A DNA stretch of 64,000 nucleotides from assembly GCA_035235625.1 (NCBI GenBank), contig CP141142.1, positions 17,866,995 to 17,930,994 on the forward strand. The letters run 5' to 3'. The notes beneath the pieces are model-generated. The model made no database searches and was not told where the DNA came from. It saw only the letters and a program-made list of their open reading frames with translations. Below, piece by piece: positions 10,427 to 64,000 of the stretch. A program made the translations under genes and the position numbers. This DNA is from Saururus chinensis. Lineage: Eukaryota; Streptophyta; Magnoliopsida; Piperales; Saururaceae. Positions within the stretch are counted from its first letter, which is position 1. Every line of letters starts with the position of its first letter.

Positions 10427-10490
10427 GAAATTTTGCCTGCGCGGGGAAATTTCAAGCATGGGCAAAATTTCCCCTCGTAGGCAAATTTTC
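10427..10490. repeat. Inverted repeat (hairpin) at the right edge of the satellite
   Basis: The left arm starts GAAATTTTGCCTGCGCGGGG and the right arm ends CCCCTCGTAGGCAAATTTTC. The arms are about 26 bp with a few mismatches, around a ~12-base loop. It begins exactly where the last GA block stops. A TATAAAA sequence follows at about 10498. Confidence 0.75.

Positions 10491-11787: not shown

Positions 11788-12007
<220 letters not shown>

Positions 12008-21573: not shown

Positions 21574-21626
<53 letters not shown>
21574..21626. repeat. (TA)n microsatellite, ~53 bp
   Basis: Pure TA run inside the E1 LTR. A shorter TA run of about 19 bp follows at 22051-22069. Confidence 0.95.
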
Positions 21627-21629
<3 letters not shown>

Positions 21630-21696
21630 TACATTGCAAACCGGGAGAGTAGTTGGGCCTAATCCGAAGCCCATCTTGGGAGGGGCAAGCCCTAAC

Positions 21697-30640: not shown

Positions 30641-31340
30641 AGAGGAGCTTACTCCATATATGCCTAGAGACAGAAGTGGAGTGAGGCTCGTCCATATTGG
30701 ATAGAGTACTTGCGCAAGACCTCTACATTGGGTCAGTGTGTGTACCTTAGGCTGGTTAGGCTGTGGTATACATCACTCTGTTTGGAGGATGATGATGCAC
30801 TAGTTGCAGTGGCAGGTAGTGTTCATGTGCGAGTGGCACCTGACATCTTTGTTGTGTTATTGGTTGTTAGAGGAGGCAACTTACATTTCCATATGATAGT
30901 GAGTTTGACTAGGAGTTTGCTTGGTTTTTCGAGAAGACCAGAGCTGGAGGTGTCATTACTTGTATATTCTATGACACAAGATTTTAGGCTGCTACATGTC
31001 ATTGTTCATCATGACATTTAAAGTGCTAGGAAGGAGAGACTAGATATGACAATGACACAACTTATACACTTCCTAGCACATCCACAACTAGAGTTGGATT
31101 TGCCCTTTATCATTATCGGTAGGATTATGACATTTCTACATGGTCACACCCATGAGATGTTATCATATCCGTACATCATGTGTGAGATTTTTATTGTAGT
31201 ACATGTGAGGATAGCTAGAGAAGAGCCCACTATGATTAGGTAGTTTACAATTGAGCTTGAAGTGGTTTGTAGGATGTTATCTCACCATCAAGGTGATGTT
31301 CATAAGCCACATCGAGTAGAAGATGCATCAAGAGAGGCAC
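30641..31340 (+). mobile_element. Second ORF relic of copy A2, putative plant transposon protein-like
   Basis: The pieces read LWYTSLCLEDDDALVAVAG, VHVRVAPDIFVVLLVV, RRPELEVSLLVYSM, RLLHVIVHHDI, LELDLPFIIIGRIMTFL and MLSYPYIM. They match the A1 ORF piece by piece. The order fits the putative plant transposon protein (Transposase_32-type) pattern. This is the better preserved of the two copies: 30710-31021 and 31046-31243 are open. Function is unknown, and there is nothing like a catalytic triad of a transposase. Confidence 0.5.
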
Positions 31341-31354: not shown

Positions 31355-31815
31355 GATCCATATATCTTCAGAATTATGAATTTTTTCCTGCAATAGCAAT
31401 TGTAGCCATGGAAGGCTTCTTTCCAATGCCACCGAATCATATCAATCCAAATTATAAATAACAAGATATGGCCGAAAGACTAAGGTTGTGTCAATATGTC
31501 CAAATTAACTTCTTCCTGAATTTAGTTCTCTTGATGTAAATCTGAAATCTAACGGGTGCAAAAGGTTATGTTCGACTATTCATTGCATGTTTAGATCATT
31601 AGGAGCCTATTTTTGACTTTTAAATAGCTTTGGGGAGTTGGGCTTTTCTTCCTCTTCTACTTGGATCATGTTGAAGTCTGTTTAGATATGTAAACAAAAC
31701 TAAGGTCCAAGTCACCTATTCAAACATAAATAGCCCAAACAAGTAGTGAATTAACACAAAATATGATTGTAATTCAAGATTTTAAAGCATCTAATTGAAT
31801 ATTATTTTAGTGCAT
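31355..31815 (-). mobile_element. Fragment of an H-family LTR
   Basis: It matches the last 465 bp (in + direction) of the solo LTR at 37973-39388, starting at GATCCATATATCTTCAG and ending near TTTTAGTGCATAAA. It starts almost at the base where other H copies are broken (equivalent to 38924). Confidence 0.75.
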
Positions 31816-33126
31816 AAAAACACTTAGTCTTTATCTTCATTGATAATTGGACAAGGGTGAATCTAGTGATCCGCTATACTTTTCTATATGAATATTAAAC
31901 TCATAGTTTTTACCGATGAAAACACTTTCGAGCCTTTTGATATGCTTCATCTTCACCATATAATCTTGACTAGTAAATATTATATCTTATGACTCAAATT
32001 ACACATCAATTTGATATTATTTTGTTCACCGAAATAAGCTAATACAGTACATATAGTTGCATATTTTCTTGCAATATCCCCCCTTTGCTATTTAGTGACA
32101 AAACACTACAACCCATTATCTAAAATGAAAATTGCAATTCATAGTGCATCAAACAAACTTTGACATTTGTTCAACTTTGACATTGACTCTCCCCCTAACT
32201 TATGATGCACATATCTAATGGTGTGGTGATCTTCTACTTGTAATTATCCTACATATTACAAACAAGAACATATATGCATAATATTGCTCCTGAAAATAAG
32301 TAAATATAAAGTTTAAATGTTTAAGTACTTGTTATGTATGATATTTAAATTCCATTAAATTTTCTCTACATTTGACATATTAGTCACATACTACTCTCCC
32401 CATTATGTCTAAAATAAACAAAGGTTGGTACAAAAACATGCTGAGAAACAATACGTTAAGCAACCACATAAAAAATTTAGATTAGGAAGAATCATGTCAA
32501 TATGTTTATCATATAGAAAAAATATAAGCAATCAAGTCTAATCAAAACCATTAGTTAGAAGATAAATAAAAACAAACATGCAACATTCACATCTCAAACT
32601 AAATAAACAATAGATCTCTACTTCAATAAACTCATCACGTGCAATGGTTTCTGACTTATTTATTCAAAACATTCTAATATCAATCAGTAATTAGAAACCA
32701 CAATTCATAGAATCAGTCAAAATCATCATCACCTTTCAGAATTCATATAGTTCACCAATCTCAAATCAAATCAAAACTTTTAAATCTATAGAACTTAAGG
32801 TTTAGCAATATAAATTCATGAAACCGTAGGGCAATGCAAATTTATGCTCATCTAGAAACCTAATGCAAAAATTAGTAAAGAAACAACCTAGAATTGACTG
32901 AAACTCAATGACTTTATATAATAAAAAACATGTTGATCTCTCTTGTTAAATTTCATTAATTTAACCTTTAATCAAAGCGCATCCACATATTACGGTAAGT
33001 TATACCTTAACTTGTATACTTTGTCTTCATAAGTTTTTCATTCTCAATCTTCATTTCTTCAATTTAATATTTTAATCCACTTTTTTTAAAATTTTTAAGT
33101 AACCAACAATGTTTAACTATTGTCTC
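31816..33126 (-). mobile_element. Reversed 3' end of a SIRE-like Copia: LTR start, polypurine tract, 3' non-coding part
   Basis: On the minus strand AGCAAAGGGGGGATAT (about 32075-32090) is a polypurine tract and TGCAAGAAAATATGCA (from 32073) opens an LTR. That LTR matches the one at 57104, for example around TAATTTGAGTCATA. The LTR is cut near 31890-31816. From 32090 to 33126 is AT-rich 3' non-coding sequence with no coding similarity. Confidence 0.55.
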
Positions 33127-34253
33127 TGTAAGAACACAAGTGACCTTCTTCATATGTTGGCTTATTGTCGAGACTAAAACAATGTCATGAAATGTATATT
33201 TTGAGTCAGCTTATAGCTTGAAGATGGATTTTTGAAGGTAGTACGAAAAGAAGACTCATATATGCGTTTTGTCATATAAAAGCATGCGCACACACCACAT
33301 TCACACACTATATAGTAAAAGAGACCTTAAGTGAAAGAATGGTAAAGTTTGGAGTTTAAAAAAGTGAAAATGAAAATTTAAGAGAGTGATCGATTGTTTC
33401 TATAGAGCGATCAATTGGCACTTGAAATCGCTATGTGTAAAATGAAGCAAAGAGTTTGTGATCAATAGGCATGTTGAAGCGATCAATTAGTTTGAAGAGT
33501 CATAAAGAAAAATATAGGGAGTAATTGATCACGCTGTGGAAATGATCAACCATTGGAGTGACAAGTGGCCAAATTTAAAATTTTTGGTTTATGAGTCTAT
33601 GAAAAGGGATTACATTATGATAGAGGAAGAGAGAAGACCTAGAAAACTTTGAGAGCTTGTGTGGAATCTCTTCAATGGAGTTTTGAGAAAGTTGTCTTCT
33701 AAATTATGAGAATCCCTACCATAAATCAAAAGATTGATATGAGGTGAGATTAGAGCACAAACCACATGGTGTTTGCTAAAACTTGTTGCTGAGAAGATCA
33801 AGTGAATAGAAGATTCATTTTGAGCAGGAGATGAAAGATCTATGTTGATCAAGCACAAAGAAAAAGATCAAGCTATCAACGATAAACAACCAAGGAGTGG
33901 TTGATTAAGAATTTAAGAGTGGTGTGAAGATCTAGCCGGTTTGAAGAAAAAGAAGGATCTTTCATTTATATAATAGGTATTTTTATAATCTTGCGTTTAC
34001 ATAATGCATAGTTGATTTGGACAGAAAGTCCCATGGTTTTTTCCTTGTTGGGTTTCCATGTAAAAATTCTTGTATGTTTTGGTTGCTGATTAATTACAAT
34101 TTTTTTGTTAGAACATAATTGAATTAGGAGGGTTTAATTGATCAAATTCTAGGTTTGATTTATTTAAAGGGTAAAAATAATTCTTTTAATAGGTTAGAGA
34201 CACTTTATTTTCTCGCTTTGTCTAAGCCACACATGTAGTTCAACAAACCAACA
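33127..34253 (+). mobile_element. 5' LTR of a SIRE-like Copia (element F)
   Basis: It starts TGTAAGAACACAAGTG and ends …CCAACA, followed after two bases by a primer-binding site. It carries the GCGATCAATTGG / GATCGATTG motifs (33390-33550) typical of this LTR group. Confidence 0.7.
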
Positions 34254-34255
34254 AA

Positions 34256-34267
34256 TGGTATCTGAGG
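34256..34267 (+). other. Primer-binding site of Copia element F
   Basis: TGGTATCTGAGG is close to the initiator-Met-tRNA primer motif TGGTATCAGAGC used by most plant Copia elements, and it stands two bases after the LTR. Confidence 0.75.
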
Positions 34268-34379
34268 ACATTTTGAACTATTCTGAGATTTTTCCCTCGT
34301 GATTGCTTAATTTTGATTGGTTGACATGTAATTTAAAAGCATGCTTAGCTTGTCTTTATTTGTGTCAAATTTTATTGTG

Positions 34380-35085
34380 GCTAGGAATAATCATATTTTT
34401 GATTAATTGAAGTTGCTTAGAGAAAACTTTTGTACTTTGGAACATGAGAATCCTCAACTTGTACAAGTCTTTACGTGAAATCAAAAATATTGAGTTGCTT
34501 GAGAAAATTGAATGGTTGGAAGAGGAATTGAAAGCTTCAAATTCTAAATTGAAAGAATTTGTCAAAGGAAGAGAAAAACTTGATAAAATTCTCTTCTATG
34601 GTCAATCTTGAGTTGAAAAAAGTATTAGGGTATGTGGGACAAAAGAATATAAATTCTATGGGAATCACTAAATTTGTTAAGGCTAAAGATTTGAATAATC
34701 ATGGTGCTAGCACTTCTAAGTCTAAATTTTTAATTGGAACACAATTGATTAAGATAGATCTAGTACCTAAAATTGAGTCAAACAAGAACAAATTAGTGAC
34801 AAAACCATAATTTATAAGAGACAATGTGAAAATTGACTTGCTCAGATAAATCACATGGATTTGAAAAAGCGTAAGAGAACTTAGTATAAAAATTCAATGT
34901 CTTGGACATAGAAATCACACACATATTTCTCCAAGATCTCATAAGTTTGCTCATTATGGGTATCATAAGAATGGATAATGAGCAAATACAAAGAATCTTA
35001 AGAATGCTAACATGAAAGAAATCTCAGTGAAATTCAAGAATTTGTGAAAACTAAGACAACTTAGGTGAAGAGAAACAATGTAAAA
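34380..35085 (+). mobile_element. gag C-terminal relic, Copia element F
   Basis: The pieces are a coiled-coil stretch (34440-34570, …IEWLEEELKASNSKLKE), then KVLGYVGQKNIN…TKFVKAKDLNN. This follows the C-terminal half of SIRE-type gags. The N-terminal half of gag is absent. The 83-codon frame at 34559-34810 belongs here. Confidence 0.5.
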
Positions 35086-36762
35086 TGTCTTGTTGTGCAC
35101 ACTGCCATGAAAACTCAACACATAACATGTGGTATTTAGATAGTGGATGCTCAAATATATGACTAATGATAGATCTAGATTTACTAATTTGGTAGAAAAG
35201 TTTGATGGAAAAGTCACTTTTGGAGATGGGAGTACCATGAAAATAGATGGGATGGGCACTTTGAAAGTTTCGAGATTGCTTGATTTTAATAATGCTTTGT
35301 ATGTGAGTGGTTTCAAAGCTAATCTTTTGAGCATTAGTCAAATTTGTAACTCTGGGTTTGTTGCCAAATATATAGAGAAGGCTTGTTATATTATTGAAAA
35401 ATCCGAAATGACTTGTGTGAAAGGCTTAAGAGCACATCATAATCGTTATTTGTTTGATCCTATTTATTTGACAAACTTGTCCTTACTTGATAATACTTAC
35501 TCCTGATATCAAAGATTAAGACATGTGAATTTTAGAGATTTTAACAAAAATAGTAAAGGAATGGATCATTAGAGGTGCTCCTAATTTGAAAACCCCTGAA
35601 AACTTTGTATGTGGTGCCTGTCAAAAAGGTAAATAATCAAAATCCCATCATAAAAAGCAAAATCATGTGAGAATTGAAAGACTATTAGAGTTGATTCATA
35701 TGGACCTTATAGGACCAATGCGAACAACTGGTTTGGGTGGTAAAAAGTACATCTTGATGATAGTGGATGACTTATAACGATTAACTTGGGTAGATTTTCT
35801 TTGAGAAAAGTCATATGCTTTTGAAATATGTAAAACAATTCCCCTTACCATGCAAGACATAAGTTGTCTGAAAATCAAAAATATTAGAAGTGACAGAGAC
35901 GGGGAACTCACAGACTTTATGTTTAAAGAATTTTGTGATACACATAGAATTCATCGTGAGTTCTCATCCCCTAAAACTCCTCAACAAAATGAGAGAGTTG
36001 AATGAAAGTATAGGATTATTCAAGAAATGACTAGGGTTATGCTAAATGAAAAAAATTTGCCTAAATATTTTTAGGCAAAAGCTGTAAGCACTGTTACTTA
36101 CACCCTCAATAGAATCCACTTGAGACATGACACTGTCCAAAGTCCTTATGAGTTGCGGAGAGGTAAAAAGCCCACAATCAAAACACATAAGAGTCTGTAG
36201 AAGTGCTTTTCATATCTTAAGACATAGGGAAGTTTTAGAAAATTTCAATAGTAAGGGTATGATGAAATTTTTCTTGGATATTCTCTAACAAGTAGAGCAT
36301 ATAGGGTTTATAACAACATAACTTGAACCATTATGGAATTTTTCAATGTGGTTGCGAACAATGCAAAAAATTTTAAAACCCAAAACAATCAGCATGAGAA
36401 AAGAAACAAAAACATGTTTATTGCTATGATTTTGATGATTTAGCTAATGTGTTTAGTGATGCAAAAAAAATAAAAAAAAATAGGTGGAAGTTCATGATGA
36501 TCATATTCATGAAATTAAAGTTTCAGAAGAAGAAGAAAAGCCGCAAGTTCAAACTAGGCAAGTACCTAATTGGGTTAAAAAAGTTCATTCTGAAACTTAT
36601 ATTATTTGTGACATCAATGAAGGAGTGAGAACAAGCTACCAATTAGAAGAATAAATAAAATTATCTTGTTATGTATCTCTTATTGAACCAAAGAAGATTG
36701 ATGAAGCTCTTCAGGATAATAATTGGATAAATGCAAATAATAGTAACTAGGACAATTTATTA
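35086..36762 (+). mobile_element. Protease, integrase and first part of reverse transcriptase, Copia element F
   Basis: The order is as in all Copia pols. The aspartic protease site WYLDSGCS stands at 35130. KVTFGDGSTMKIDGMGTL and LLSISQICNSGF follow (35147-35506). The GAG-pre-integrase LRHVNFRDF is near 35517. The integrase core has HMDLIGPM near 35697 and ILMIVDDL. The integrase end is FLGYSLTSRAYRVYN near 36270. The reverse transcriptase opens with EPKKIDEALQDNNW near 36690. The similarity stops at 36763, the left inversion junction. It has many breaks and no working pol. Confidence 0.8.
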
Positions 36763-36763
36763 G

Positions 36764-37737
36764 GCTGGCATGCAATGGGACAGCTAGTTAACTAACCCAA
36801 GCCCAGCACATGGAGAATCTTTCCATTAGTTTGATATACATAAGAAAAGACAATGGGGCTGATTAGATAACTAAAGGAAGACTCAAAGATACTTATTTCC
36901 TAAATAAATCATTGATTTATTTTATTGATTTAGAATCTAATTATTTCTAAAAAAGTAACCAATCAAGCAATCGATCAGGATGCAATCAAGAGAGATGATT
37001 GGACTTTCCCCTTTGAAGCAACCCCTTCTACTCCTATGAATAGAGGGGTGGACATGATAGAGGTATCATCCCCTCCTCTTTGGAGCTCTATTCTCCTATT
37101 TTTCTTCTCTTCTTCTCTTCTTTTATATTTTTATTTTTAGTTTTATTGTAATGGCTTTCTAAGTTCTCAAGCTAAGGCTGTAGGTGATTTGTAACAATAT
37201 ATTGGAGTTCTATTCATGTTTCATGAATGGTTTCAAGTAAGTAGTGGTTATTTAAAGTGTTATTCATTTAATATTGTTCTTTTTCTTGTTTCTTTGTGAT
37301 TTGGATACATAAGATGCTTGAAGGCTCTCTTTCTTGATCTTTTGTGATTTTGATACATAGAACTCTTGAAGAAACAATTATTTTTATCTTTCATCTATCC
37401 AAAGTATTTTCTATCTTTATTTTTATTTTTAATATTTATATCTTCCGGTTAGATAGAATCTTCATTTCATTCTAACTGAGATAACATGATACATGAAGAA
37501 CATCATAAGATGCTACAATGACCCTTAATGCCTTAGTATTTTTTCTTCTTGATTTCTTAACTCGTTATTGCCTCAATACTCTTCTACTCTTTTTTTTTAA
37601 TTTTTCTTTCCTCTATTTTTTTCGTAATCATTTTCTTTGTTGAACAAGGCTTTCCCAATGGATCGACCTTGTCTACTACAATTAGCAAGTAAAATAAATC
37701 TGAATTTGACTTCTTCATAGTCATGGATATAGCAGCA
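36764..37737 (+). mobile_element. H-family LTR, first piece of the split solo LTR
   Basis: This is the reverse complement of the 37973-38918 part of the intact H LTR. Its right end, TATAGCAGCA (37737), is the LTR terminus. It is followed by ACTGG (37738-37742), the complement of the CCAGT found after the other piece at 47554. The left end is the inversion junction. Confidence 0.85.
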
Positions 37738-37972
37738 ACTGGTCCACTAGTGTGGGGATGATAGGGTGTATCCACTTTATGCATGATAAAATATTTCTTC
37801 AGTTAGACTCAAATGCCCTATTACAAAAATGACCACCTCCATCAGTAATGATAGCTCGAGGAGTACCAAAGCAAGAAAAAATATTTTCTTTAAAGAACCT
37901 GACCACAATTTTATGGTCATTTGTCTTGCATGGGTACAACTTCAACCCATTTGGGAACATAGTCTACAAGGT
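37738..37972 (-). mobile_element. Integrase core relic of the Athila-like gypsy element
   Basis: On the minus strand VDYVPKWVEVV and HKVDTPYHPHTSGPV mark the core domain of a Ty3-gypsy integrase. The piece is bounded by two separate H LTR insertions, at 37973 and 37737. Confidence 0.75.
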
Positions 37973-39388
37973 TGTTGTTACGTCTGAACCAAAACTATGA
38001 AGAAGTCAAATTCAGGTTTTTTTACTTGCCAATTGTAGTAGATAAGGTCGATCCATAGGGAAAGCCTTGTGCAACAAAGAAAATAGTTACAAAGAAAGAG
38101 TAGAAGAGTATTGAGGGAATAACAAGTTAAGAAATTAAGAAGAGAAAACATTAAGACATTAAGGATCATTGTAATATCTAATGATGTTCTTCATGTATCA
38201 TGTTATCTCAGTTAGAATCGAATGAAGATTCTATCTAACTAAAAGATATGAACATTAAAATTGAAAATAAAGATAGAAAATACTTTGGATAGATGAAGGA
38301 TAAAAATAATTGTCTCTTAAAGATTTCTATGTATCCAAATTACAAAAGACCAAGAAGGAAAGCCTTCAAGCATCTTATGTATCCAAATCACAAAGAAATA
38401 AGAAGAAGAACAATATTAAATAAACATCACTTCAAATAAATAATACTTACTTGAAACCATTGATGAAACATGAATTGAACTCCATTAGATTGTTACAAAT
38501 CACCTCTAACCTTAGTTTGAGAGCTTAGAAAGCCATTACAATAAAACTAAAAACAAAAATACAAAAATGAGAGAAGAAAATAGGAGAAGAGAGCTCCAAA
38601 GAGGAGGGGATTATTCATCTATCACGTCTACCCCTCTATTTATAGGAGTAGAAGGGGTTGCTTCAAAGAGGAAAGTGAAATCATATCTCTAGATTGCATC
38701 CTGATTGATTGCCTAATTGGTTACTTCTTTGGCAATAATTAGATACTAAATAAATCAAATAAATCTATGATTGATTTATCAAATAAGTATCTTTGAATCT
38801 TCCTTTAAATATCCAATCAGCCTCATTATCTTTCCTTATGTGTATCAATCAAAATCAATGAAAATATTCTTCATGTGCTGGCCTCGGGTTAGTTTACTAG
38901 CTGTCCATTTGCATGCCAGAGTCGACCCATATATCTTCAGAATTTGGAATTTGGTCCTGAAATAAGACTTGTAGCAACGGAAGTAGTCTTTCCAATGTCA
39001 CCATAATCGTATCAATCCGAATTATACAGAGAAAGATATGGTCACAATACTACGGCTGTGTCAATCTGTCCGAATCAGCTTCTTTCCTAATTTAGTTCTC
39101 TTAATACAAATATCAAATCAAACGGGTCCACAAGGTTGTGTTCGACCATTTCATGTATGTTTAGACCATTAGGAGCTCATTCTTGACTTTTAAATAGCTT
39201 TGGGTAGTTGGGCTTCACTACATATTCTAGTTGGATCTTGTTGAAGCCTGTTTAGACATGTAAACTCAATTAAGGTCCAACTAACCTATTCAAAACATAA
39301 ATAGCCCAAATAAGCAATGAATTAATACAAAATAGGATTACAATTTAAAATTTGAAAATATTTTATTAAACATTATTTCAGTGCATCA
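37973..39388 (-). mobile_element. Solo LTR, family H (intact ends, target duplication AAGGT)
   Basis: It spans TGTTGTTACGTCTG to CAGTGCATCA, 1416 bp, flanked by AAGGT at 37968-37972 and AAGGT at 39389-39393. Orientation is taken from copy H1, where the primer-binding site identifies the LTR 3' end. It lies inside the integrase relic of the gypsy element, whose reading resumes on both sides. It is a typical product of recombination between the two LTRs of one insertion. Small frames in it are not genes. Confidence 0.92.
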
Positions 39389-40069
39389 AAGGTCAAGGAT
39401 AAAAAAGTTATGAATAGATGGGGGAAATGGGCTCATGAAATCAATGCCACACACATAAAAAAGTGCAACAATCAAAATGTGGTTAAGGGGCATCATATTT
39501 TTATGAGAGATTCCACTTAACTTTTGACAGTGCTCACAAGCTTTACTGAATTCGTGGCTGACATGAAAAAGTGTAGGCCAATAGAAACCACAATGTAAAA
39601 TTTTTGTAGTGGTCTTCTTGGCACAAAAATGTCCACAACATACCTGAGAATGACAAAAGGAGATTAGACTTGTTGCTCAATATCATGAATACATCTCCTA
39701 ATGATTTGTTCAAGACAATACTTGAATAAATATGGATCATCCCAAAAGAATGATCTAACCTCAATTAAAAATTATGTTGTATCTTGCTTTGTCCTCTCAC
39801 TAGATTTGACCTATAATAAGATAGTTAGCAATATCTTAATACCAAGGGGACTGAGACACTGACAATAGCTATTCACGAGGGAATGACTCGTTAAGGGGAA
39901 AAGACTCCTCAGTGGACTCAAAAACTAGCCTAGACAAGTGATATGCTACCATATTCTTAGAACCTTTCTTATTTTAATTTCCAAATCAAATTCTTGTTGT
40001 AGAAGGATCCATCTAATCAAACAAGGTTTAGCATCTTTCTTGGAAAGAAAATATCTCAATTCTACATCA

Positions 40070-40267
40070 TCAGATGACCTTGGATCCTATAAGGTAAGAC
40101 CTAAATTTCTCTAAAGCAAAGACAACAGCTAACAATTCTTTATTAGTGGTTGAAGAATTAAGTTGGGCATCATTTAGGGTCCTACTAGCATAGTAAATGA
40201 CATGAGGTAATTTGTTTATTATTTTCCCCAAAACAGCTCTGACCACATAATCAAAAGTATCACACAT
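40070..40267 (-). mobile_element. RNase H domain piece, Athila-like gypsy
   Basis: The open piece contains [38 protein letters not shown] and IGSKVI, the RNase H signature of Ty3-gypsy pols. It lies downstream of the reverse transcriptase in the same direction. Confidence 0.9.
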
Positions 40268-40633
40268 AATCTAAAATGGGACCTTCTAATTAGGTGGTTG
40301 AATTAGGTGTGGAAGTCAACAATTTCTTAAGTTTCTCAAAAGCTTGTAAACATTCATCTCTTAAGACAAAAGTGGAATCTTTTGCAAGCAAATTGCACAA
40401 CGGTTGGGTAATCTTGCTAATGTCCTTAATGAACCTATGATAAAACCCTGCATGTCCCAAGTAAGACCTACTTCCTTCACTGTATGTGGTGGTGGAAGGC
40501 TCGAATTCAAATTAATCTTAGCCTTGTCAACCTCAATGCCATGCTTCGAAACGACATGCCCAAGAAACCATGAAATGGCATTTCTCCCAAGTCAAGACAA
40601 GATTTTTTTCTCTACACCTAATTAACACTAATG

Positions 40634-41158
40634 TCAAATGGTATAAACACTCCTAAAAAAAGATTCCAAATATTGAGAAATCATCCATAAACATCCAAGA
40701 AAATGTTCTACTATATCAAAGAAGATGCTTATCACACATCGCTGGAAAGTGGTAGGTGCATTACATAGTCCAAAAGGCATTCTCCTATAGGAAAATGTCC
40801 CAAATGGACAAGTAAATGTGGTCTTTTCTTGATCCTTGGGTGCAATGGGAATTTGGGGAGTAACCATCTAAAGAGCAATAAAAACCATGCCCAGCTAATT
40901 TCTCAAGCATCTAGTCAATGAAAGGAAGGGGAAAGTGGTCCTTCCTTGTGACTACATTTAATTTTTTGTAGTCAACACAAACTTGCCAACCAGTGTCATT
41001 TTAGTTGGGACTAATTCATTATTCTCATTTTTGAGTAGAGTGATTTTTGATTTCTTGGGGACAACTTGAACAGGGCTATCCCAAGAGCTTTCTGAAGTGG
41101 GGTAGATAATACCCACATTGAGTAACTTTAACACCTCAGCTTTGACAACCTCTCTCAT
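40634..41158 (-). mobile_element. Reverse transcriptase pieces, Athila-like gypsy
   Basis: EVLKLLNVGIIYPTSESSWDSPVQVVPKKS lies in the right-hand piece, and FGTFSYRRMPFGLCNAPTTF in the left-hand one. These are the template-grip and core motifs of Ty3-gypsy reverse transcriptase. There are two open pieces with a gap between them. Confidence 0.9.
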
Positions 41159-43250
41159 ATTATGATTAAGCCTTCATTGCATTTCTCTATACAGTTTCGA
41201 GTTATCCGCATGGTGAATGGGATGCATGCAAACAGATGGACTTATACCCTTAATATTGATAATGGTGCACCCGATGGCTGATTTGTGTGTCTTAAGGACA
41301 TTGATCAGTTGCACTTCCTGTTCAATTCCTAAGTCAAAGGAAATTATCACCAAGAGGGTTTCATGTAGACCTAAATAGGCATATTTAAGTTCAACAGGTA
41401 AAGGTTTTAGATCCAGCTTGGGTGGCTTTTCTAAAGATGGAACTTGTTTATGCTCATTAAGTGAAAGTGGCTCCACTTTGGCTTTCCTTTTGTTAGTGTC
41501 CATAAGAGGTGTAAAATTCAACAAATCATTGACCTCATTAATGGAACTAACATCATCAAAATCAGCACCAAAATGAGCTAAACATGCTGCTAGAGGGTCA
41601 TTAAAATTAGACTAGAGGAATGAATCATGAACAAGACTCTCTATCATATGAACATTAGTTAAATATTTACTACCATTTAGTTCAACTATCATATTTCCAA
41701 AAGATATTTTTATAATACCATTCCTACAATTTATCAAGGCGTTGAGATAGCAAAAAAATTTGGTCGACCAAGAACAATAGGAATCTATCCCCTAGAGCTT
41801 TCAACAAGTTGGGTGTCTGAAACAATGAAATCTACAAAATTATAGAACTTGTCAACCTAAATCAAAATATCTTAGACAACTCCATGGGGAACCTTAATTG
41901 ACCAATCAGCAAGTTGGAGCTTCACAAAAGTGGGTTTGAGATCACCGAGCCCCAACTGATCATACACAGAATATGGCAATAGATTGACACTAGCCCCCAA
42001 ATCTAGCAATGCTTGCTCTATCCTATGATTACCGACAACACTTTAAATGATAAGGCATCCAAGATCTTTGTATTTTGGTGGGGGCTTGTGTTGTAGAATT
42101 GAGCTTACTTGCTTGGTGAGGAAGGCCTTCTTATGTAGACTCAAATTGTAATTGATTGTACATAAGTCCTTCAAGAATTTGGCATAAGCAGGGATTTGTT
42201 GAATAACATCAAGAAATGGAATATTTATTTCACTTGTTTAAACACTTCCATTATCTCATTGTCATTATTTCATTTTTTAGCCAAGAGCAACCTTGAGGGA
42301 ATGGGGCAGGAGACACATAGGGTGTGGAAGATGTTAGTGCATGCTCCTCATTGTTATTCTTACCCTTAATGTGATCACAAACTAATGGATCTTGGTGTTT
42401 TTGCATCTCAATAGACTTTGTTTCCTTCGCTGGTTGCCTAAGGGTTTTGTTCACTAGCTTACCACTCCCAAAGGTAGTAGTTGATTTGGCTTCCTCTTTA
42501 TATGAATTAGGTGGTGAAACAATGCCCAGCTCATACTATCCCTTAGGGTTAGGCACATTTTGACTAGGAAACTGACCTTTCTCTCTTTCACTCATTGCGG
42601 TTGCCAATTGACTCTTGTAGACTCAAGTCTTTGTATAGCCTGGGAGGTGGATTGATTAGTCAAGATTTGGGCTTGATGAATTGTTGGAGGGTCTCCTCCA
42701 ATGAGGGTATCTTTGGCAGTTGTTGGGAAAATGGTTGTTGCATAAGGGGGCTTACAGGTGGCCATACTTGAGCCCCTTGAGGTAGACCTTGTCTCCATGC
42801 TAAATGGTCTCTTGTAAGTGTTCGAAGCATTAGTTTGCTCAGCCATAAGCTCTGGGAAGGAAAAAGGATGGATGGGTACTCTTTTGCAATGCGTGAAACA
42901 CTCTGACATATGGCACATGTGGCATTGGTTGTGATCTTAGATAAACTACCCACTTTACCTAGTCCAATGGCTTCTACCTTGTCAAATTAGCTAACTTGGG
43001 CCTCATATGTACATCCCCTTTCACTTCTTATATCCCACCTCTTAAAGGAAAAGCTTTCTCCACTTTTTTTGAACACTCCCATTGCATCAAAGAAATCCCA
43101 TGAATCTTCACCATGTTTGGCCATGAATTCCCCATTGCACATTCTTTCCACTAATTGACTTATGAGAGATGTCAAACCTTCATAGAAAAAGTTGATTAAT
43201 CTCTAGACCTCAAAACCATGGTGAGGGCATTTAAGGAGAAAGTCCTTATA

Positions 43251-45385
43251 TGTAAGATCTCTAATTTTATTTTATTTTAATTCCTTTTAATTGTGTAAAT
43301 TTGTTTGTTTGCTGGTTTGATTTGATTTTGGGGTTGTGGATTAGTTAATTATGACTTTAATAAGGTTTAATTTTATTTTAAGAGTTTTAATGCCAAGCTT
43401 GATTTTCTCAATTTTTATCGATTTAATGGCATTTTCTATTAATTTTTCTTTCATAAAGAGCGTGGACCCCACTGTGGGCCACAAGTCCATGTATGATGAT
43501 GTGTGACCCATTTGACCCTCTGATCTTTTTTTTTTTTATTTAAGTGGGTTTAGGTGTGATTAAATTTATTTTTGGGCTAAAAATAACCTTAATTATCCAC
43601 AAGGCATTTTGGCCTATTATCTAGCCCAACTATTCTTATTTCAAGCTTAAAACCCTTACTATATAAGGAAAACCCTTAATTAGCCACTTAGTGCATTTTG
43701 ACCTATTATCTAGCCCAACTATTCTTATTTCAAGCCTAAAACCCTTACTATAAAAGTAAAACCCTAGCCTATTTGCTAAATGGGGAAGGCCTGTGTTAGA
43801 AGGGAGGAAATACTCTACCCTAATTTTTTCAAAGGAGAAACTTGGATTAAGGTGTATTTTCTCCCTTAAATATCCCTAATCTTTTGATTTTGGTCTTAAT
43901 CACATCTATCTTCATTTCCCCTATCTTGATTTTTGATTTTTTCCAATAAAAATATTTTTTTAATTTTGATTTAGAACCCTAATTAGGTGCTTTTCGTTTT
44001 TAACCTAAGGATATCCTAGATCTATCTATTTTCAAGATGATTTGAGTTCATTAGATAATTTTAATTAGGTTTTAACTAAAACTAAAACCAAAATTTTGGG
44101 TAGGATTTTCTTAGGATTAAAGCTCTTTTGTAGATTCATAGGCTTATTAGAGGTAAGGGATATTTACCTTGTGTGGTTTCCTTCATTGGAAATCATGATT
44201 ATAGGTTTATTTGAGATCTTGCTTCATTTTGTGGTTTAATGGTGATTTGTTAAAAATATGTGATTTAAGGTTATTTTCTTGTGATTAAGCATGAAATTGA
44301 TTAGATTCAACATGTTATATGTTATTTTTTATTATATGATGTTCTATGGTATTTTTTTATTTTATATGGAATTTTGAAATGTTTTTGTTTGAATTTTGAA
44401 GGGTTGAAGATGAACCAGAAAAGTGTATTATTCCAACCAATCTTCTGAATGGTTGTACTATAGAATGGTGCAAAATGCTATTTTGTGAATTTTTCAGCCA
44501 TTTCTTGTTCTTTTCTGATAATTATAATTTCCTATGACTATGATGAATTATGATTACTTATCACTTAATTGCATGTGAACTTTCTTTCGATTATGATTTA
44601 GGTTAATCATGATGATGATTGTACTTGTCTGGGTCTAGCATGATGCTTTACTCATCTTAAATCCACATTTTGATGATTTCATCACATTTATTCCATGATT
44701 CCAGTAGTTTATGACATGCCACATTGATTATAGGTGAATCATGTTCAACATGTTTTAGCCTAAGTATGAACCCTACCATGTATGCACATTATTACATATG
44801 TTTATATAATTTTATTTGTCACAAATGGACCATGTTATATGCACATATGGACTGATTTGAGTACACTTATTCATACTTATAATCATTCAACTTTGTGCAC
44901 ATATGTATCATGCCGCATGCATCATAAAATGATCTCTAAGCGATGATTTCCTGTAATTAGCCATGATTAATTAATTGGATGCAATTGATGTCATGTTGCT
45001 AGATTAATTGCTAAGAGGTTTATAGAAATGGTTTTACGTCCGAAAGGATGGGTTTTTGTTTTACGTCTCTTTGAGGATGGGTTGCCTCCCTGGGTTGGGA
45101 ATTGCGAATTTGCTATATGAGTTAAACTGATATGTTATCTGGACCATGAGAATGTATGATGATATGTTCGTATGTACCAACTTACTAGGGTACTCTAGTT
45201 TTCCTTTCTAGGAACTTGGACCATCCCCGCAAGGATTGTCCTAGGTGAGAAGGGGGGTACCTTTCCAGTTGGGGAACTTACCTAAACCGCTATAGTTTTC
45301 TTTTAAGGAATTTGGATCTTCCCCACAAGGGATTGTCTTAGCGAGCGGGTTTAATCATTTTTCTCAATTGGGAGATATTCTTTGT
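43251..45385 (+). mobile_element. LTR-like piece of family B
   Basis: It starts TGTAAGATCTCTAATTTT at 43251. It matches 12008-13070 over its first ~1.15 kb and continues with TTACGTCCGAAAGGATGGG and CTTGGACCATCCCCGC phrases resembling Tekay/Del-type LTR interiors. No primer-binding site follows and no target duplication was found. It stands where the gag start, the leader and the last ~650 bp of the gypsy 5' LTR should be, so insertion came with, or was followed by, a deletion. Confidence 0.5.
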
Positions 45386-46505
45386 TGAAAACCGGTCAAA
45401 AAAAATCCTTGCTCGCAGTTTGCTACAGTAACATGAACAGTATCGTGAATAGTAACCATGAACTATGTTGCTACATTACTCGTAAATAGTGCTGCTATAG
45501 TACCATGGCTTGCGAAAATTGTTCTATGCTTTTTTCTATGCCCCATTGTTTTGAATATTAATTGCTATATTTATAGACTAATTAGTTTACTAATCCATCC
45601 ACAATAAGGACATGTTTCTTCCCATAATTCAATGAATCAGAGAGAATCCTTTCTTTTTATATCAGTTCATTTTGCTTTCTGCTGTGTTTCCTAGTCATAT
45701 TGGAGCTCCTTCTAAACCACAAATCTATCTAATAAATCCTCCAATTTAGATAAATACAAACAAACCTAAGAGAGTCCAATGTTGTTATGCTATTTTGACA
45801 CATTCTAGTAAGATAAAAGCTTCAATGAATCCATTAATGACGGCTCGAAAGTCCTTGTCACTGTCAACTCCAAATTTTGACCTCTCCAAGGTGCCAAAAA
45901 TTAATTTTTGAAACCACCTTCTTGTCTTGAAATGAGTTGGGAACAAAGCCCATAAATCAATTTTTGTGATTACAGACTCTTTAGAATTTTATTTCATTAT
46001 ATATTTTCCCTAACTGATTCATGTTTCTATACTCTCAACAATTTTGTCCAATTAATTGTTCAAATTCATTTTGGGAAGATGACTATTGTTCACTGAACTA
46101 TCCAGATTTCTGTCAAGCTTTCTATTCTATTCATTAAGCTATTTTATTATTTTCTATATTAATTTCCAACTTGTTTGTGACTTCGTTAAGTTGTCCAAAT
46201 CATTTTAAAACACGTCAAGAGTGTTTCCAAATATTTCTCACATCATGCAAGGGCCTTAATAAGCTAATCATACCTACAAAACATAAAAAAATCATAGTTT
46301 AGATATGTAGTACATACATATAATCCCAACTTAATTCAAATACATGCCTAAACTACTAATAGCACTCAAATTAACTAATAATTAAACTAAAACTACTAAT
46401 TTCTATCATAACACGAATAAACTATAATCAACCTTATATTAACCTAATCCTATACCAGCAAATAAGGTAAAAAGGTTATAAAATGAATAAAATCCGCATT
46501 AATCA
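45386..46505 (-). mobile_element. 5' LTR of the Athila-like gypsy element (truncated)
   Basis: Read on the minus strand from 46505 it starts TGATTAATGCGGATTTTATT and pairs with the LTR at 51780 (TGATGAATGAGGATTTTATC). They share CCTTATTTGC, GTGCTATTAGTAGTTT, TTTGGAAACACTCTTGAC and ACAAGTTGGAAATTAATAT. By eye the pair is roughly 80-85% alike, so the insertion is several million years old under usual plant rates. The last ~650 bp are replaced by family B. Confidence 0.85.
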
Positions 46506-46510
46506 CAAAC

Positions 46511-47100
46511 CTTTCATACTCATTTTAAATTCCTTATCCATCTCTTTTGCAAAAGCTTCAGAAAGCTTATCATTTGCAAAGCTAAATATAATGTCATCTG
46601 CATAGATGTGTGCAATCACAACATGCTTTTTATACTTTTTCACAAATAATATCTTGTCAACACCTTATCTTGTGTAACCCTACTCTGTTCGATATTTTTT
46701 CTACATATCATACCATGCTCTTGGAGCTTGTTTCAATCCATACAAAACTTGCTTCAATTTGTACACATAATCAAGATGATGAGGGTCAATAAAGCCCTTG
46801 GTTTCTTCAACATAGACTTCCTTCTTCAAGTATCCATTTAAAAAAACAATGTTGGCATCCATCTGATATACTTAAAATTTTAAATGACATGTCATAGCTT
46901 GAAGTAATCTAATAAATTTAAGTCTATCAATAGCAGAAAAAGTTTCATCTAAATCAATACATTCTACTTGTGTATAGCCTTGAGCAACCAATCATGCTTT
47001 ATTTATAACCACATTACCTTGTTCATCTGTCTTGTTCTTGTAAATCCACTTTTTACCTATGACATAATTTCTTAGGTCTAAGGACAAGAAACTAATAAAT
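46511..47100 (-). mobile_element. Reverse transcriptase middle part of Copia element F
   Basis: Minus-strand pieces: IGKKWIYKNKTDEQGN (about 47060), VYKLKQVLYGLKQAPRAWYDM (about 46735), HIYADDIIFSFAND (about 46600) and FAKEMDKEFKMSMKGL (about 46520). This continues the Copia reverse transcriptase whose start is at 36690-36762. It ends at the gypsy LTR at 46505, with CAAAC (46506-46510) as the candidate left target duplication. The 60-codon + strand frame at 46610 is a shadow. Confidence 0.85.
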
Positions 47101-47553
47101 CTTCCAAATTTCAAATTTCTTCCTGAAATAACAATTGTATCTACGGAAGTTTTCTTTTCAATGCCACTAGAATTGTATCAATCCAAATTATATATAAAAA
47201 GATATGGTGGAAATACAAAATCTGTGTCAACCTGTCCAAATTAGCTTCTTCCCAAATTTAGTTCTCTTGATACAAATATGAAATCCAATGGGTCGAAAAG
47301 GTTGTATTCGACCATTCCATGCATGTTTAGATCATTAGGAGGCCATTCTTGACTTTAAATAGCTTTAGGTAGTTGGGCTTTACCTCCTCTTCTACTTGGA
47401 TCTTGTTGAAGCCTGTTTAGATATGTAAACACCACTAAGGTCCAACTCACCTATTCAAAATATAAATAACACATATAAGTAATGAATTAACACAAAATAG
47501 AATTACAATTAAAGATTTAAAAGCATCTAATTGAACATTGTTTTAGTGCATCA
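47101..47553 (-). mobile_element. H-family LTR, second piece of the split solo LTR
   Basis: It matches 38935-39388 of the intact H LTR, from CTTCCAAATTTC to GTGCATCA. It is followed by CCAGT (47554-47558), the same target duplication as at 37738-37742 (read in complement). Confidence 0.88.
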
Positions 47554-47558
47554 CCAGT

Positions 47559-48130
47559 TGAGGTCTCCATTAGGGAAATCAAGTACATATTAGAGAAAAT
47601 GGTATAGCTAGACTGCAAACATTGGTCTCTTTAGGTTGATAGATGCTATCTACGCTTATCGCACTGCTTCTAAAACTCTGCTTAGGATGTCACCATATAG
47701 GCTTGTCTATGGGAAACCCTGTCACCTATCTATAGAATTGGAACATAGAGCCTACTGGGCTAATAAATCTTTTAATTTTTCCCTTGATAAGGCTAGCTCA
47801 CATAGAAAGCTTCAACTTAATGAGTTAGAAGAGATCTAGAATGATGCTTATCAAAGTGCTAAAATTTAGAGTGATCAAATGAAGGTGTTCCATGATAAAA
47901 TGATTCTTAGAAAATCTTTTGAACCCTCTCAAAAGGTCCATTTGTACAACTCAAGATTGCATTTATTTCCTCGAAAACTTTGATCTTGTTGAACTGGCCC
48001 TTCATTGTTAAGATAGTCGATCCTTATGGGGGTTTGAAATTGGAGACCCAAGTAATGGTAATGTTTTTAAAGTTAATGGTCAAAGATTAAAGCCATACTT
48101 GGAATTTGTTCCTCCGAAGGTTGAGATTGT
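47559..48130 (+). mobile_element. Integrase C-terminal relic of the Athila-like gypsy element
   Basis: DAIYAYRTASKTLLRMSPYRLVYGKPCHL…ELEHRAYW (open at 47636-47839) is followed by LNELEEI, VFHDKMI and YNSRLHLFP, and by GNVFKVNGQRLKPYLE near 48090. This is the end of integrase in Athila/Tat pols. It directly follows the CCAGT duplication, whereas the matching front half ends at 37743 on the other strand. It is broken in several places. Confidence 0.85.
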
Positions 48131-49378
48131 ACCTCCATATCCTTTTTTTCAGGATTGAGTTCTCATACTTACTTTGTTTGTCTAAGGACAATAAACTTAG
48201 AGCTTGTGGGAGGCAACCCATGGTTATAGTGTCATTTTTTTCTTTTGTTAGTGTTATTTTATCAATAGGGGTGATCCACTCTAGGTTTGGGGGTGATATT
48301 CTTACATGTATTTTTTTCATTCCCTAACCTGAGTTCTATTAGTTTCTTATTTTCTTTGCACCATCATGTATAGATTTTGACAGTGTGCAATACTACAGGT
48401 AGTATATTTCTTACCATTCTTCTTCTCTTTACTTGTCGTTGTAGTGTTTACTATTTTTAACAATGCGGTCAATGTCAAGTTTAGGTTTGGGGTGTAGAAA
48501 GAGTTTGTCTATATTGTCTATGTCTTGGTTATTTTGTTATTTTGATATGAAGAAATTTTAAAAAAATTAAAAAAAAATAATTTTGATTTGAGTTTCTTGT
48601 TCTTGGCTATTTACATTGATGTTTCTTTTAGACATGTGATTGCGTTTAATGATATTAGACTGTTTATAACATGTTTATATAACATGACGGATTCAATGAT
48701 TTTGAGTTTGATTACATCATATTGGTTTCTTGTGCTCCTATTTTGAAAATTAGAAAGACATTTGGCTATATGAGCATTCAATTACTTGATTATGGTTTTA
48801 CATCTTGGTAGATATAATTGAATCTAAGTAGTTATTTTCTTATAAGAGTAAAACTTTGGTATGATCTAGTAGTACTCAGGTTATCATAATATAGTTTTTT
48901 GCTTGACTATTCTTGTTTAGTAGATTATTCTAGGACTTTCTATTATCATAATTAAGGTTGAGTGTATAATGTTCCCAAGAAAAAATAAAAAAATATAAAA
49001 CAGAAAGAAAAAAATAAATTGAAATAAAAAAATGATGAATGCAAATTTGAAAAGAGTGAAGATAAAGTCTCTCTACTAAGTAGACAGGGCCTCGGTATGC
49101 CTCACTAAGCATAGGGTATTTGAGTTGAAAGGTAGAGTTGATTAATCCATGACATGCATAGCCTTGTAGCCTATTTGGTTCAAGTTGTTAAGCCCGAGGG
49201 GTGCGTTAGCACTAAGTGCCCTGAGTCAACTAGATTGGAAGTCACTTGCCTAACACTTGTTATTCGGATCTTATAGAAAGCTTAAGAAGGCTAAGCCTTC
49301 CACATGTCATGTGAGATGAGCATAATAGTTTAATAGCACATTATGCAGTTTATCCTAAATGTGTTTGTTAGGTGATCT
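48131..49378 (+). other. 3' non-coding region of the gypsy element
   Basis: It holds the GTGGGAGGCAACCCATGG phrase (48208-48225) and the TTTAGGTTTGGGG phrases (near 48280 and 48485) usual after pol in Athila/Tat elements. No env-like frame or membrane segment was recognised. The 73-codon frame at 48106 has no recognised product. Confidence 0.6.
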
Positions 49379-51262
49379 TGTAATGACCTATTTTTCGATT
49401 ATGCCTAAAGAGAGGGGTTAAGGGGTAATTCTACAATTTTGATTAAGTATTAGGTGGTTTCAAAGGATGAAATCATCATATACTAATAGAGCTCAAAGTA
49501 ACAAGTCTAACAAATCGAAGAACATGCAAAATGGAGGTCGGGAGAGAAAATTATAACCTCGGGATGTGTGCCACATTATAAGACCTACTTGAAAAGTGAG
49601 GGATAACCTGCCCATGTGTGGTCTTGTTTCAAAGGGCTCATTGATATGAGTCCATCGGTACCAAGAACGTGCAATTCCGACTTCAGAGTAGGAAGTTATC
49701 GCCTTTTGAGGTTATGATATTATTAGAGTAAAATAATATAGAATCGGATAGGAATGATTATGCAAGCGGATAGGAATGACGACTAAGCAGATATGATTGC
49801 TGACAAAGTGGATAAGATCGCTGATGCAGCAGATGAAACTGACACTCGTCAATCCTATCTACCACGTGTTAGCATCGTGTTTATCCATTTTTTCCATCAA
49901 TAGCATCCAGAGCATCTAGTTTTGGAGTAAGAATTCCTGAAAACTCTCTCATGATTCTGTATTATCTCACACATTCAAAAACTTCTTCTCTTAATTTATC
50001 ATTCATTTTAAGTCCGATTTGAGTCATTCTTGAGGCGTTCCTAGCTAATTTGAGGGTGATCTACTCAATGGAATAGTCCATTCTTTAAGTTGGTATTCCT
50101 AGATGGGCAAACGGCCCAGGGAAAGAGGAGGCTCTGCCTACCACCCTCCTGCCCTGAAGAGAGAGAAGCGGCCTAGAGAGAGAGGGGGCTCCGTCCTCTA
50201 TCACCAGCCACATTGAGAGACATGGCCTAGAGAAGGGGAGACTCTGTCCTCCACCAAAGGGCCACGCAGTGTGAGAAATGCCCCGGGGAAGGGGATGTTC
50301 TATCCGTAACTTATGAGTGGAGAAAAGAGAAGAGTCTTTAGGTAAGGGGGAGTTCTATCCGCCGCATACGGGCGTGGTATGTGTAAAGTGTACTAGGATT
50401 GGGAAGGATTAGGCCAGGGAAAAAGGAGGATTTGTCTGCCATCCTCATTCCCCGAAGAGAGAAAAGTGGCCCGAAAAAGGAGGGGGGCTCCATCTTACAT
50501 CACTAGGCTGCATCGAGAAAAGTGACCCAGAGTAGGGGAGGCTCCGTCCTCTACTGAAGGGTGATGGAGTGTGAGGAACAACCCTGTGTATGAGAGGTTT
50601 TGTTTGCTGCCCACAGGCACAGAGAGTGATGTGTCTCCGGGAAAGGGGAGGGTTTTGTCTATCACTTTCCGGCGCAATGAGAGGAATGTGCTGGAGCTAG
50701 AGAAGGTTCTGCTCACTGCCAACCTCTAGATTGGAAGGGGAGGATGCCCAGAGGGAACGAACATTTTTGAATGCCGCTACTTCTTGGGACACCAGGGGAT
50801 TAAGCATTTTTAACCTTCCAATTTAATTATAAGAATGATGTGCTAATTAGGATGTATGCTATGCTACAATTCATTGTGTTGAGTATGCTATGCTTTGATC
50901 CATTGTGTTCTGATCTACTATGCTTTGATGTGACTAAATGAGCTCGATCTCACTTTGGGGTAGAGTGAGACGTGTATGTGTGCTGTCTCGCATTAGGTTA
51001 GAGCGAGACATGTGAATGACATAGGCAACCAATGATAAGGCAAAGTTGGCCCGATCCAAATTGGATATATAATTAGGTTTGTTGTGGCCTACGCGTATGG
51101 AGCACTGAAGTTCCGTAGTGTGTAGAGGAACTTGATGACTCTCGCACTCAAGAGTACGCTGTTCCTAGTTTTTGTTTGGTTTTAATCTTTTTGGGACCTT
51201 GGAGTACAGGTCCTCCCCTATGAAACCCCAGCTCAGGTCAGTTTATGGGTCGGGGCGTTACA
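49379..51262 (+). mobile_element. Solo LTR, Tekay/Del-like (target duplication GATCT)
   Basis: It spans TGTAATGACC to GGGGCGTTACA, 1884 bp, flanked by GATCT at 49374-49378 and GATCT at 51263-51267. It lies in the 3' non-coding part of the gypsy element. At 50110-50740 it carries about ten degenerate ~60-bp tandem units around GGGGAGGCTCCGTCCTC. The TGTAA…GGCGTTACA ends are those of Tekay/Del chromovirus LTRs. Confidence 0.9.
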
Positions 51263-51267
51263 GATCT

Positions 51268-51779
51268 AGGATGTTTTTACTTTTCAGGGACGGTTTTGCA
51301 TGTTTCTCTATTATGATCTCTTGAGGTTGAATGGATGCCAATGTCTACTTTTTTAAGTGTTAAATTCAAATTGCTCAGTGGACATGAGACACATTGAGTC
51401 ATTAGATTCATTAAATTGGGATTGCATAATTACTTGACAATGTCACTTTTTAAAAAAAAACTAGTACATATGTATGAGCCTCCCACCAACATGAAGTTGT
51501 CAGAATAAATTATTGTTTTAGAAGACAAGTTGTATTATGCATTGCACTCACTAATGATTGATTTTATTAAATGGAATCATATGTTTAGGAGAAGTTAATA
51601 TGTAATTTTTTTATTGATTTTTTTTTAAATTTTTTTTGAATTTTGTGGGTAGACATACTGCAAACGGTCATGAGACTATAACTTGTGATTTCCATCGGAA
51701 GTGGAGTAGTTAGCTTTTTTTGTTGTTGTTTTCGTTTTGTTTTGCTCGAAGACTAGGAAAATATAGGTTTGAGGGTATT
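51268..51779 (+). other. 3' non-coding region and polypurine tract of the gypsy element
   Basis: AT-rich sequence ending in GGTTTGAGGGTATT directly before the LTR at 51780. This is a degenerate form of the polypurine tract seen before Athila LTRs. Confidence 0.6.
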
Positions 51780-53530
51780 TGATGAATGAGGATTTTATCC
51801 ATTTTATGATCTTTTTACCTTATTTGCAAGTATAGGATTATGTTAATTTAGGGTTAAGTATGGTTTATTAGTGTTAGGATATAAATTAGTAAATCATTAA
51901 TTCGAGTGCTATTAGTAGTTTGGGCATGTATTTGAATCAAGTCTAAATTTTATTTATGTCCTACATATCTAAAAATATGATTTTTTTATATTTTATAGGT
52001 ACGATGCACTTATCAAGGCCCTTGGATGATGTGAGAAATATTTGGAAACACTCTTGACATGCTTTAAAATGTTTTAGACAACTTTTTGGAATCACAAACA
52101 AGTTGGAAATTAATATGGATGCTAACAAAAGAGCTTAATGAACAGAATAGAAAGCTGGACAAAAATCTGGACAGTCAAGTGAACAATAGTCATCTTCCCA
52201 AACATGAATTTGGACAGTTAATTGGGCAATACTGTTCAGATTGCAGAAGTGTGGAGTAGTTAGGAAAAATGATGAAATCAAATTCTAAGGAGTCTAGAAT
52301 CACAAAAATTGATTTAGGGCTTTAGTACCCAACTCATTTCTAGACAAGAGGCTGGTTTCAAAATTTTATGTTTGGCACCTTGGAGAGGTCAAAATTTGGA
52401 GTTGAGAGTGACAAGGAGTTTTGAGCCGCCATTAATGGATTCACTTAAGCTTTTATCTTACTCAAAAGTGTCAAAGCAGCATCACATTGGTGGATTTTCT
52501 TAGATTTGTTTTTATTTATCTAAACTAAAACCAACAAATTGGAGAATCTATGATAGAGTTGTGATGTGCAAGGAATCTAACATGATTAGTAAGCATATCA
52601 GAAAGCAAAAAGAACTTAAATAAGAAGAAAGGATTCTCTCTTATTGTGGATGGATTAGGAGGCTAATGAGTCTATATAAAGAGCAATTCATATAAAAAAC
52701 ATAGGGGGAGAGAAAAAAAGTAGAGAAAAAGTTTGCACGCCATGGTACTGTATTAGCACCGTTTACAAGTATTGTAGTAGCACTGTTCATAGTTACTATT
52801 CATGATAGTGTTCGTTACTATAGCATACCGCGAGCAGGGATTTTTTTCGACTGGTTTTCTACGGAGAATTTGAAGGTGCGATATTTATTTTCTTTTATTT
52901 AATGTCTTTTTACTATCCATGAACTTAATGCATAATGCTATGCTAGCCGTAAACATGGTGTTTTAAACCTGTATAACTAAGGCTGAGATAAAGTACTAAT
53001 GAAGCATGTATTAAACTCTAGTTTTAGTTTATATTTAGTGGATTAACCTCTTTTTAATTCTACCATGTGAGTTTTCTTTTAATTATTTTGTCAAGCACAT
53101 TAATTAATTAGATTATCATTAGTGTGAATTATAATCTATGCATATGTGTAAAGAATTGATCTCTGATTACTTGTGTTCTTCGGATATGTGTAACACTTAG
53201 ACAATTAATTAAAGTTGAGGTTTCCTTGGTTATTGTATGAATTTGGATTAGAGTTGATGGTATGTGTTGATTTAGTATGGATTTGATGCCTTGGTTTAAT
53301 CCTCCATAATATTTTCTTTGAAGTGTTTTAGTTTTGTTTCTTTAGATTTTCAATCAAGAATTATTTGAGTTCTTATTTTGATAGCTCAGAAGTAAGAACA
53401 AGTGATTTCAGTTTTCAATTATTTTTCCTAGGAATTAGCATTCCTCATAGGATGGTCCTCAAATTCACTAAGCATTTTATTTCTTCACTACCTACACTTG
53501 GGTAACACTTTTTAAGTTGTTCTACAAGAT
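51780..53530 (+). mobile_element. 3' LTR of the Athila-like gypsy element
   Basis: It begins TGATGAATGAGGATTTTATC after the polypurine tract. Its first 1.1 kb pairs with 45386-46505, after which the partner is lost. The end is set at about TTGTTCTACA (53525-53530), just before Copia F coding similarity resumes. No clean right target duplication was found, and about 200 codons of Copia sequence appear to be missing at this border. Confidence 0.75.
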
Positions 53531-53534
53531 ACAA

Positions 53535-53925
53535 ATTATTGTTTCTATTTGACGCTACTTCTAAACTTGTAGGACACTCATATGCTGATTGGACTGGGAA
53601 TGTAGATATTAGAAAAAGTACTTTAGGAGGATTTTTTATGTAGGAAATTATTTAATTTCTTGGCATAGTAAAAAGAAAAATTGTATTTCTTTATCAACTG
53701 TTAAAGTTGAATATATAGCTGCTAGTACTAGTTGTACTTAATTAATGTGAATGAGAAGGAATACGTCAATGCAAGATGACTTTATATTTTGATAATCTAA
53801 GCTCATTAAAAAGAACATATTTCAAACAAGTTTCAATTGGCTGATACTTTTACAAAACCTTTTGATTTCAATAGGTTCATTAATGTTTAAAAAGTCATTG
53901 AACTTGCTTGTCCATAGTAATTGTG
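53535..53925 (+). mobile_element. RNase H end of Copia element F
   Basis: Pieces read GHSYADWTGNVDIRKSTLGGFF, then SWHSKKKNCISLSTVKVEYIAAST, then LADTFTKPFDFNRF and IELACP. These are the standard last motifs of a Copia pol. It lies in the same direction as 35086-36762, which supports one Copia element interrupted by the gypsy insertion. It has several breaks. Confidence 0.85.

Positions 53926-63618: not shown

Positions 63619-64000
<382 letters not shown>

Follow-up and report, generated by a model that had tools for sequence, protein, structure and literature searches.

A probable 10.3-kb inversion inside a nest of plant LTR retrotransposons, read from one solo LTR split in two

Three described systems come closest to the DNA discussed here, each in its own part. 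In Drosophila, the inverted arrangement of O7 carries inverted duplications at its ends, as does our segment, and the excerpts of that paper used here weigh staggered breakage against copying during repair as the origin of such duplications (PMC7584159). In wheat, end joining with filler DNA leaves losses at the break and short insertions copied from nearby, likenesses of which are found at our locus, and in the excerpted text of that work the templates of plant filler lie more often in cis (PMC7156093). In maize, a region of chromosome 4 has, in the portion of its description drawn on here, nested LTR retrotransposons and solo LTRs (PMC2773423), and these are also the materials of our case.

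Where plant DNA is rich in repeats, a small inversion is difficult to make out to the base, since one repeat taken alone does not tell the order. Interleaved elements serve as markers, and with them an earlier order, the bases lost and a copy left at a junction can be read from one sequence. In this paper, we focus on one such nest, within a window (the whole stretch analysed) of 64,000 nucleotides of Saururus chinensis contig CP141142.1. Judged by their relatives, its elements are LTR retrotransposons of a plant (the named Copia and Gypsy matches among those listed include Rhodiola, Prunus, Malus and Tanacetum), and the halves of several of them now point in opposite directions.

How many events would it take to set these halves straight? 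Very probably one: a flip of 36764-47100 (10,337 bp), whichever source one prefers for the 9-mer discussed below. The segment is bounded by two breaks, one inside a Copia reverse transcriptase and the other inside one solo LTR of a family that we call H, and a single flip at these two breakpoints fits the strand switches and orders of the Copia element, the Gypsy pol (through its integrase), the H LTR and a pair of Gypsy LTRs. An earlier note on this DNA had proposed an inversion of about 10.3 kb; the flip accounts for the LTR halves, the target site duplication and the Copia and Gypsy pol orders on which that proposal was built, and the coordinates of the LTR pieces, of ACTGG/CCAGT and of the 9-mer hold on re-examination. 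As far as the letters can tell, both the inversion and the observation are confirmed as features of this sequence.

The Copia element is placed on the plus strand at 34411-36763, where 34411 is only the start of an open frame; it has a Pol_BBD domain (35144-35506) and, at 35805-36005, a weak match to the integrase core (rve, E 0.021) that falls short of Pfam's cut-off. Its reverse transcriptase had been described as stopping at 36763 and resuming at 47100 on the minus strand, and single proteins do run collinearly through this strand switch. The flipped continuation, 46512-47100 on the minus strand, carries an RVT_2 match (profile 15-196 of 244) from about 47063 to about 46515, ending within a few bases of a Gypsy LTR; on the plus strand, tblastn of relatives extends Copia homology to about 36735-36744. 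Among the 120 relatives listed, the best of 2418 found, 24 follow the order with the strand switch, 16 of these with a left HSP of E<1e-3, and none is reversed, these being counts of ordered HSPs with out-of-order chance HSPs left out; at least 35 residues precede the flipped piece in 27 of the 120. Beyond the Gypsy 3' LTR, where Copia would resume, there may be a remnant of its RNase H on the plus strand at 53450-53950: the motifs WHSKK...LSTxxxEYIAA and ADxFTKPF presumably point to this domain, and the search for Copia RNase H gave no Pfam match and no homologue there.

The Gypsy gag-pol (39389-43875, minus strand) has Pfam matches to RVT_1, RT_RNaseH and Integrase_H2C2, with the reverse transcriptase at 40634-40867, RNase H at 40070-40270 and the H2C2 zinc domain within 39389-39676; the gag part and the limit at 43875 are set by the position of open frames only, and Pfam found no match on 41174-41611 or 42592-42936. 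Its integrase goes on in two pieces. The middle part, at 37738-37972 on the minus strand (tblastn; a sub-threshold Pfam match to rve, profile 47-84 of 102, with E 0.0044), ends in TPYHPHTSGP, and the C-terminal continuation, at 47554-47839 on the plus strand (tblastn; no match in a Pfam search of 47612-47839), begins PVEVSIREIKYILEKM, so that the reading runs on across the gap from TPYHPHTSGP to PVEVSIREIKYILEK. That the inversion splits this integrase, as already proposed, is borne out by single relatives collinear across the break: 18 of 120 listed have a minus-strand match ending at 37700-37830 and then a plus-strand match starting at 47530-47700, the order test allowing the two matches to overlap, and in 16 the minus part has E<1e-3. 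These 120 are the best of 156 found with the right-hand part; 19 of them have at least 43 residues before the match in 47530-47700, 16 carry a VEVSNREI-type motif and 7 an uninterrupted PYHPQT..G.VE-type run.

The flip is visible again away from the breakpoints, because an element has its two LTRs in the same orientation, as direct repeats, and here they are inverted. The Gypsy LTR at 45378-46512 (minus strand; the 5' LTR of the two, turned over together with the segment) and the unflipped 3' LTR at 51774-52869 (plus strand), both given by the limits of their alignment rather than by exact LTR ends, are identical at 911 of 1078 aligned bases in opposite orientation, and we take them for the LTR pair of one Gypsy element. 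This further evidence had not been used before. The Jukes-Cantor divergence of the pair is 0.174, which would be some 6.7 to 12.4 million years at rates of 1.3e-8 or 7e-9 substitutions per site per year. Inspection by eye near 46512 and 52870 for a target duplication left by Gypsy inside Copia settled none.

The break at the other end of the segment falls in a solo LTR, and its reading depends on a second, intact one of the same family. This intact H LTR (37973-39388, plus strand, also in the Gypsy integrase) has AAGGT on both sides (37968-37972 and 39389-39393) and no internal region; we number H positions along it. The first piece of the split LTR, 36764-37737 on the minus strand, covers H22-947, and the second, 47095-47553 on the plus strand, covers H957-1416, with 47095-47100 also belonging to the 9-mer; the parts adjoin, free of the overlap that would speak against inversion. 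The earlier note's view that the two pieces cover one H LTR stands; where it put the loss at about 15-20 bp, the H bases absent between the pieces are 9 (948-956), or 15 (948-962) with 47101 taken as the place where the LTR restarts. When two cut points are drawn at random along 1416 bp, they fall 15 bp or less apart in 2.2% of draws.

At the outer ends, ACTGG (37738-37742) and CCAGT (47554-47558) are both present, as had been reported. The first, read on the minus strand as CCAGT, lies inside Gypsy integrase codons, and the second, on the plus strand, lies at the opposite outer end of the split LTR; the minus strand from 37802 to 37738 is LKKYFIMHKVDTPYHPHTSGP, and CCAGT is common to this end and to the start of the plus-strand continuation at 47554. 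The split LTR is thus flanked directly by its target site duplication and has no internal region. Its left terminus is weakly conserved: the alignment of the left piece with H spans 36765-37721, and it is chiefly the TG start and the target duplication that place the outer end at 37737, because the last 16 bp (37722-37737) only weakly resemble the H terminus.

Besides the complete copy, the window holds four other H copies or pieces, namely 69-1305, 31355-31815 and the two split pieces. The copy at 69-1305 lacks about H746-942, with TGCC at both edges of the deletion. On its inner side, GGCGCCGTTGCCGGGG (minus strand) looks like a retrotransposon primer-binding site; 69-1305 may be the 5' LTR of an element that leaves the window leftward, and the true orientation of the H LTR would therefore be minus. 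Three H copies are broken within about 15 bp of one another, at H942 (the deletion edge in 69-1305), H947/957 (the inversion) and H952 (the truncation of 31355-31815), and three random points fall within 15 bp with a probability of 0.00035, a figure computed after the data had been seen. Before the flip, the split H LTR and the copy at 37973-39388 (if already present) would have faced each other as inverted repeats, each arm about 1.4 kb long and the spacer between them 235 bp, a structure likely to be hairpin-prone. That the LTR break was non-random, H LTRs breaking again and again at one site and so giving rise to inversions and truncations, nevertheless strikes us as improbable.

Might the two pieces instead be independent, truncated H insertions? 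Truncation may recur at H942-957, three copies being cut there, yet CCAGT stands at both outer ends, the integrase codons continue across the gap, and Copia and Gypsy switch strand as well; we regard this alternative as extremely unlikely. The pieces do differ in divergence (substitutions only), the left being 0.106 and the right 0.163 from H, and 0.100 and 0.162, respectively, from 69-1305. The control pair, H against 69-1305, differs in the same direction (0.073 for the left part vs 0.101 for the right part), and when the 3'/5' divergence ratio of the split LTR is divided by the control's, resampling gives 1.13 (95% 0.68-1.88) against H and 1.20 (0.72-2.04) against 69-1305. Two pieces of different age were rejected for this reason, the difference not being significant against the control pair; the divergences are compatible with a single LTR, without proving it.

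The rest of the window has features of its own. About 9 kb at 1507-10430 consist of degenerate GA-rich tandem repeats, with periods such as 18-40 and 83-89 and long low-complexity open frames; 13893-18203 and 27102-31304 are direct copies, about 76% identical in the longer blocks and 66% in the last, and 27370-28192 is, by its motif, presumably a Copia-gag-like stretch. There are three runs of AT/TA dinucleotides (11855-11987, 21574-21634 and 63621-63735). The self-comparison of the window was read for rows with first coordinates outside about 2363 to 8309.

At the junctions themselves lies a 9-mer, ATTTATTAG, on the plus strand at 36755-36763 and, inverted, on the minus strand at 47092-47100. 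A comparison of the two 40-bp junction regions shows no other exact inverted match longer than 5 bp; random pairs of 9-mers from 33000-52000 reach at least 8 matches at a rate of 0.00023. The left copy fits the Copia frame, CAA TTT ATT AG giving QFIR, and of the 23 relatives that reach this far, one has QFIR at the same site, five have QFVR, seven QFKR and the rest other residues. The two Copia motifs on either side are 24 residues (72 nt) apart in 22 of these 23 relatives, the last being uncountable, and 56 nt apart in the window with the 9-mer counted once, a net 16 nt short. Not all of this need be junction loss: this Copia copy has other small indels, so part may have gone elsewhere.

Where did the second copy come from? 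The earlier note was right that the 9-mer is present at both junctions; its explanation, a staggered end filled in, is not established. With staggered double-strand breaks, 9-nt Copia overhangs would have been filled in on both ends, and this would explain an identical, inverted 9-mer lying exactly at both junctions with a left copy that fits Copia coding; inverted duplications at the ends of a Drosophila inversion are given this reading in the excerpts used here (PMC7584159). Yet although the inverted duplication is there at both ends, fill-in predicts a second copy running straight into the next Copia bases, and contiguity with native Copia is made doubtful by that net 16 nt (56 nt vs 72 nt), so fill-in needs a separate deletion. 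We think it unlikely, copied filler or microhomology being at least as likely. Microhomology already present before the breaks, with the LTR having CTAATAAAT where H has CCCATATAT and Copia having ATTTATTAG, is a doubtful but serious candidate: at the corresponding place, H954, H already matches the 9-mer at 6 of 9 positions (as well as do 2.5% of 9-mers in the window), yet three changes from H within nine bases are required, and the other H copies covering H954 read CCCCTATAT (69-1305) and TCCATATAT (31355-31815) rather than the 9-mer. An origin in the LTR alone was rejected, the left copy fitting Copia coding and its omission raising the net Copia loss to 25 nt. Given the inversion, our tentative first choice is filler DNA copied from the other end; it fits slightly better because resection plus a copied 9-bp filler covers both the loss and the copy.

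Nothing longer joins the two ends. Between the stretches of 3 kb that surround the two breaks, there are 95 exact inverted matches of at least 9 bp, and the longest of them, an A/T run of 16 bp, lies elsewhere than at the junctions; the junctions share the 9-mer only, as in non-homologous end joining, which works without long homology. The want of a long inverted match at the breaks makes homologous recombination less likely, and equally what usually leads an assembler to invert a segment. Homologous recombination between inverted repeats was rejected, no long repeat pair being found at the breakpoints, and so was ectopic recombination between inverted LTRs, the Copia break having neither an H LTR nor another long inverted match. 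Could an assembler have joined the segment in reverse? The region is rich in repeats and contains an inverted repeat made of H LTRs, yet for a segment to be misassembled in reverse, its ends usually have to lie in long inverted repeats, and here 9 bp are shared and no inverted repeat between the break regions is long enough to confuse an assembler. The small losses and the 9-bp copy, moreover, resemble repair, and we consider such an artefact very improbable.

From the sequence, the order of events can be read as follows. A Gypsy element interrupted Copia in its reverse transcriptase domain, an H-family element entered the Gypsy integrase (duplicating CCAGT) and was reduced to a solo LTR, and the same integrase has a second H solo LTR (duplicating AAGGT) at a distance of 235 bp. 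Two later double-strand breaks, in the Copia reverse transcriptase and near H947-957 of the first solo LTR, very probably released the 10.3-kb segment, which end joining would have put back reversed, at the cost of 9-15 bp of LTR and, at the Copia junction, of a net 16 nt (perhaps not all at the break). The 9-bp inverted copy at the second junction would most likely be filler, and less likely a filled-in stagger or microhomology. The inversion is younger than the Gypsy insertion and the first H insertion; it may be younger or older than the H LTR at 37973-39388.

What we describe looks like a break-repair fossil of an ordinary, known class, unusually well documented, rather than a new system, and it leaves the known mechanism of inversion unchanged. 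It does suggest that nests could be mined for inversions by looking for single elements whose two LTRs, or whose pol domains, face opposite ways. Set beside the closest systems, as far as the excerpts used here describe them, it differs in scale and in setting. The O7 duplications are 59 and 534-540 bp long and belong to a complex multibreak inversion (PMC7584159), whereas here 9 bp accompany a 10-kb segment inside transposons. The wheat junctions are deletions or indels (PMC7156093), whereas here a segment was inverted, and the copy would lie at the junction across from its template. The maize inversions are breaks of synteny between genomes (PMC2773423), whereas here the flip is resolved to the base inside a single nest.
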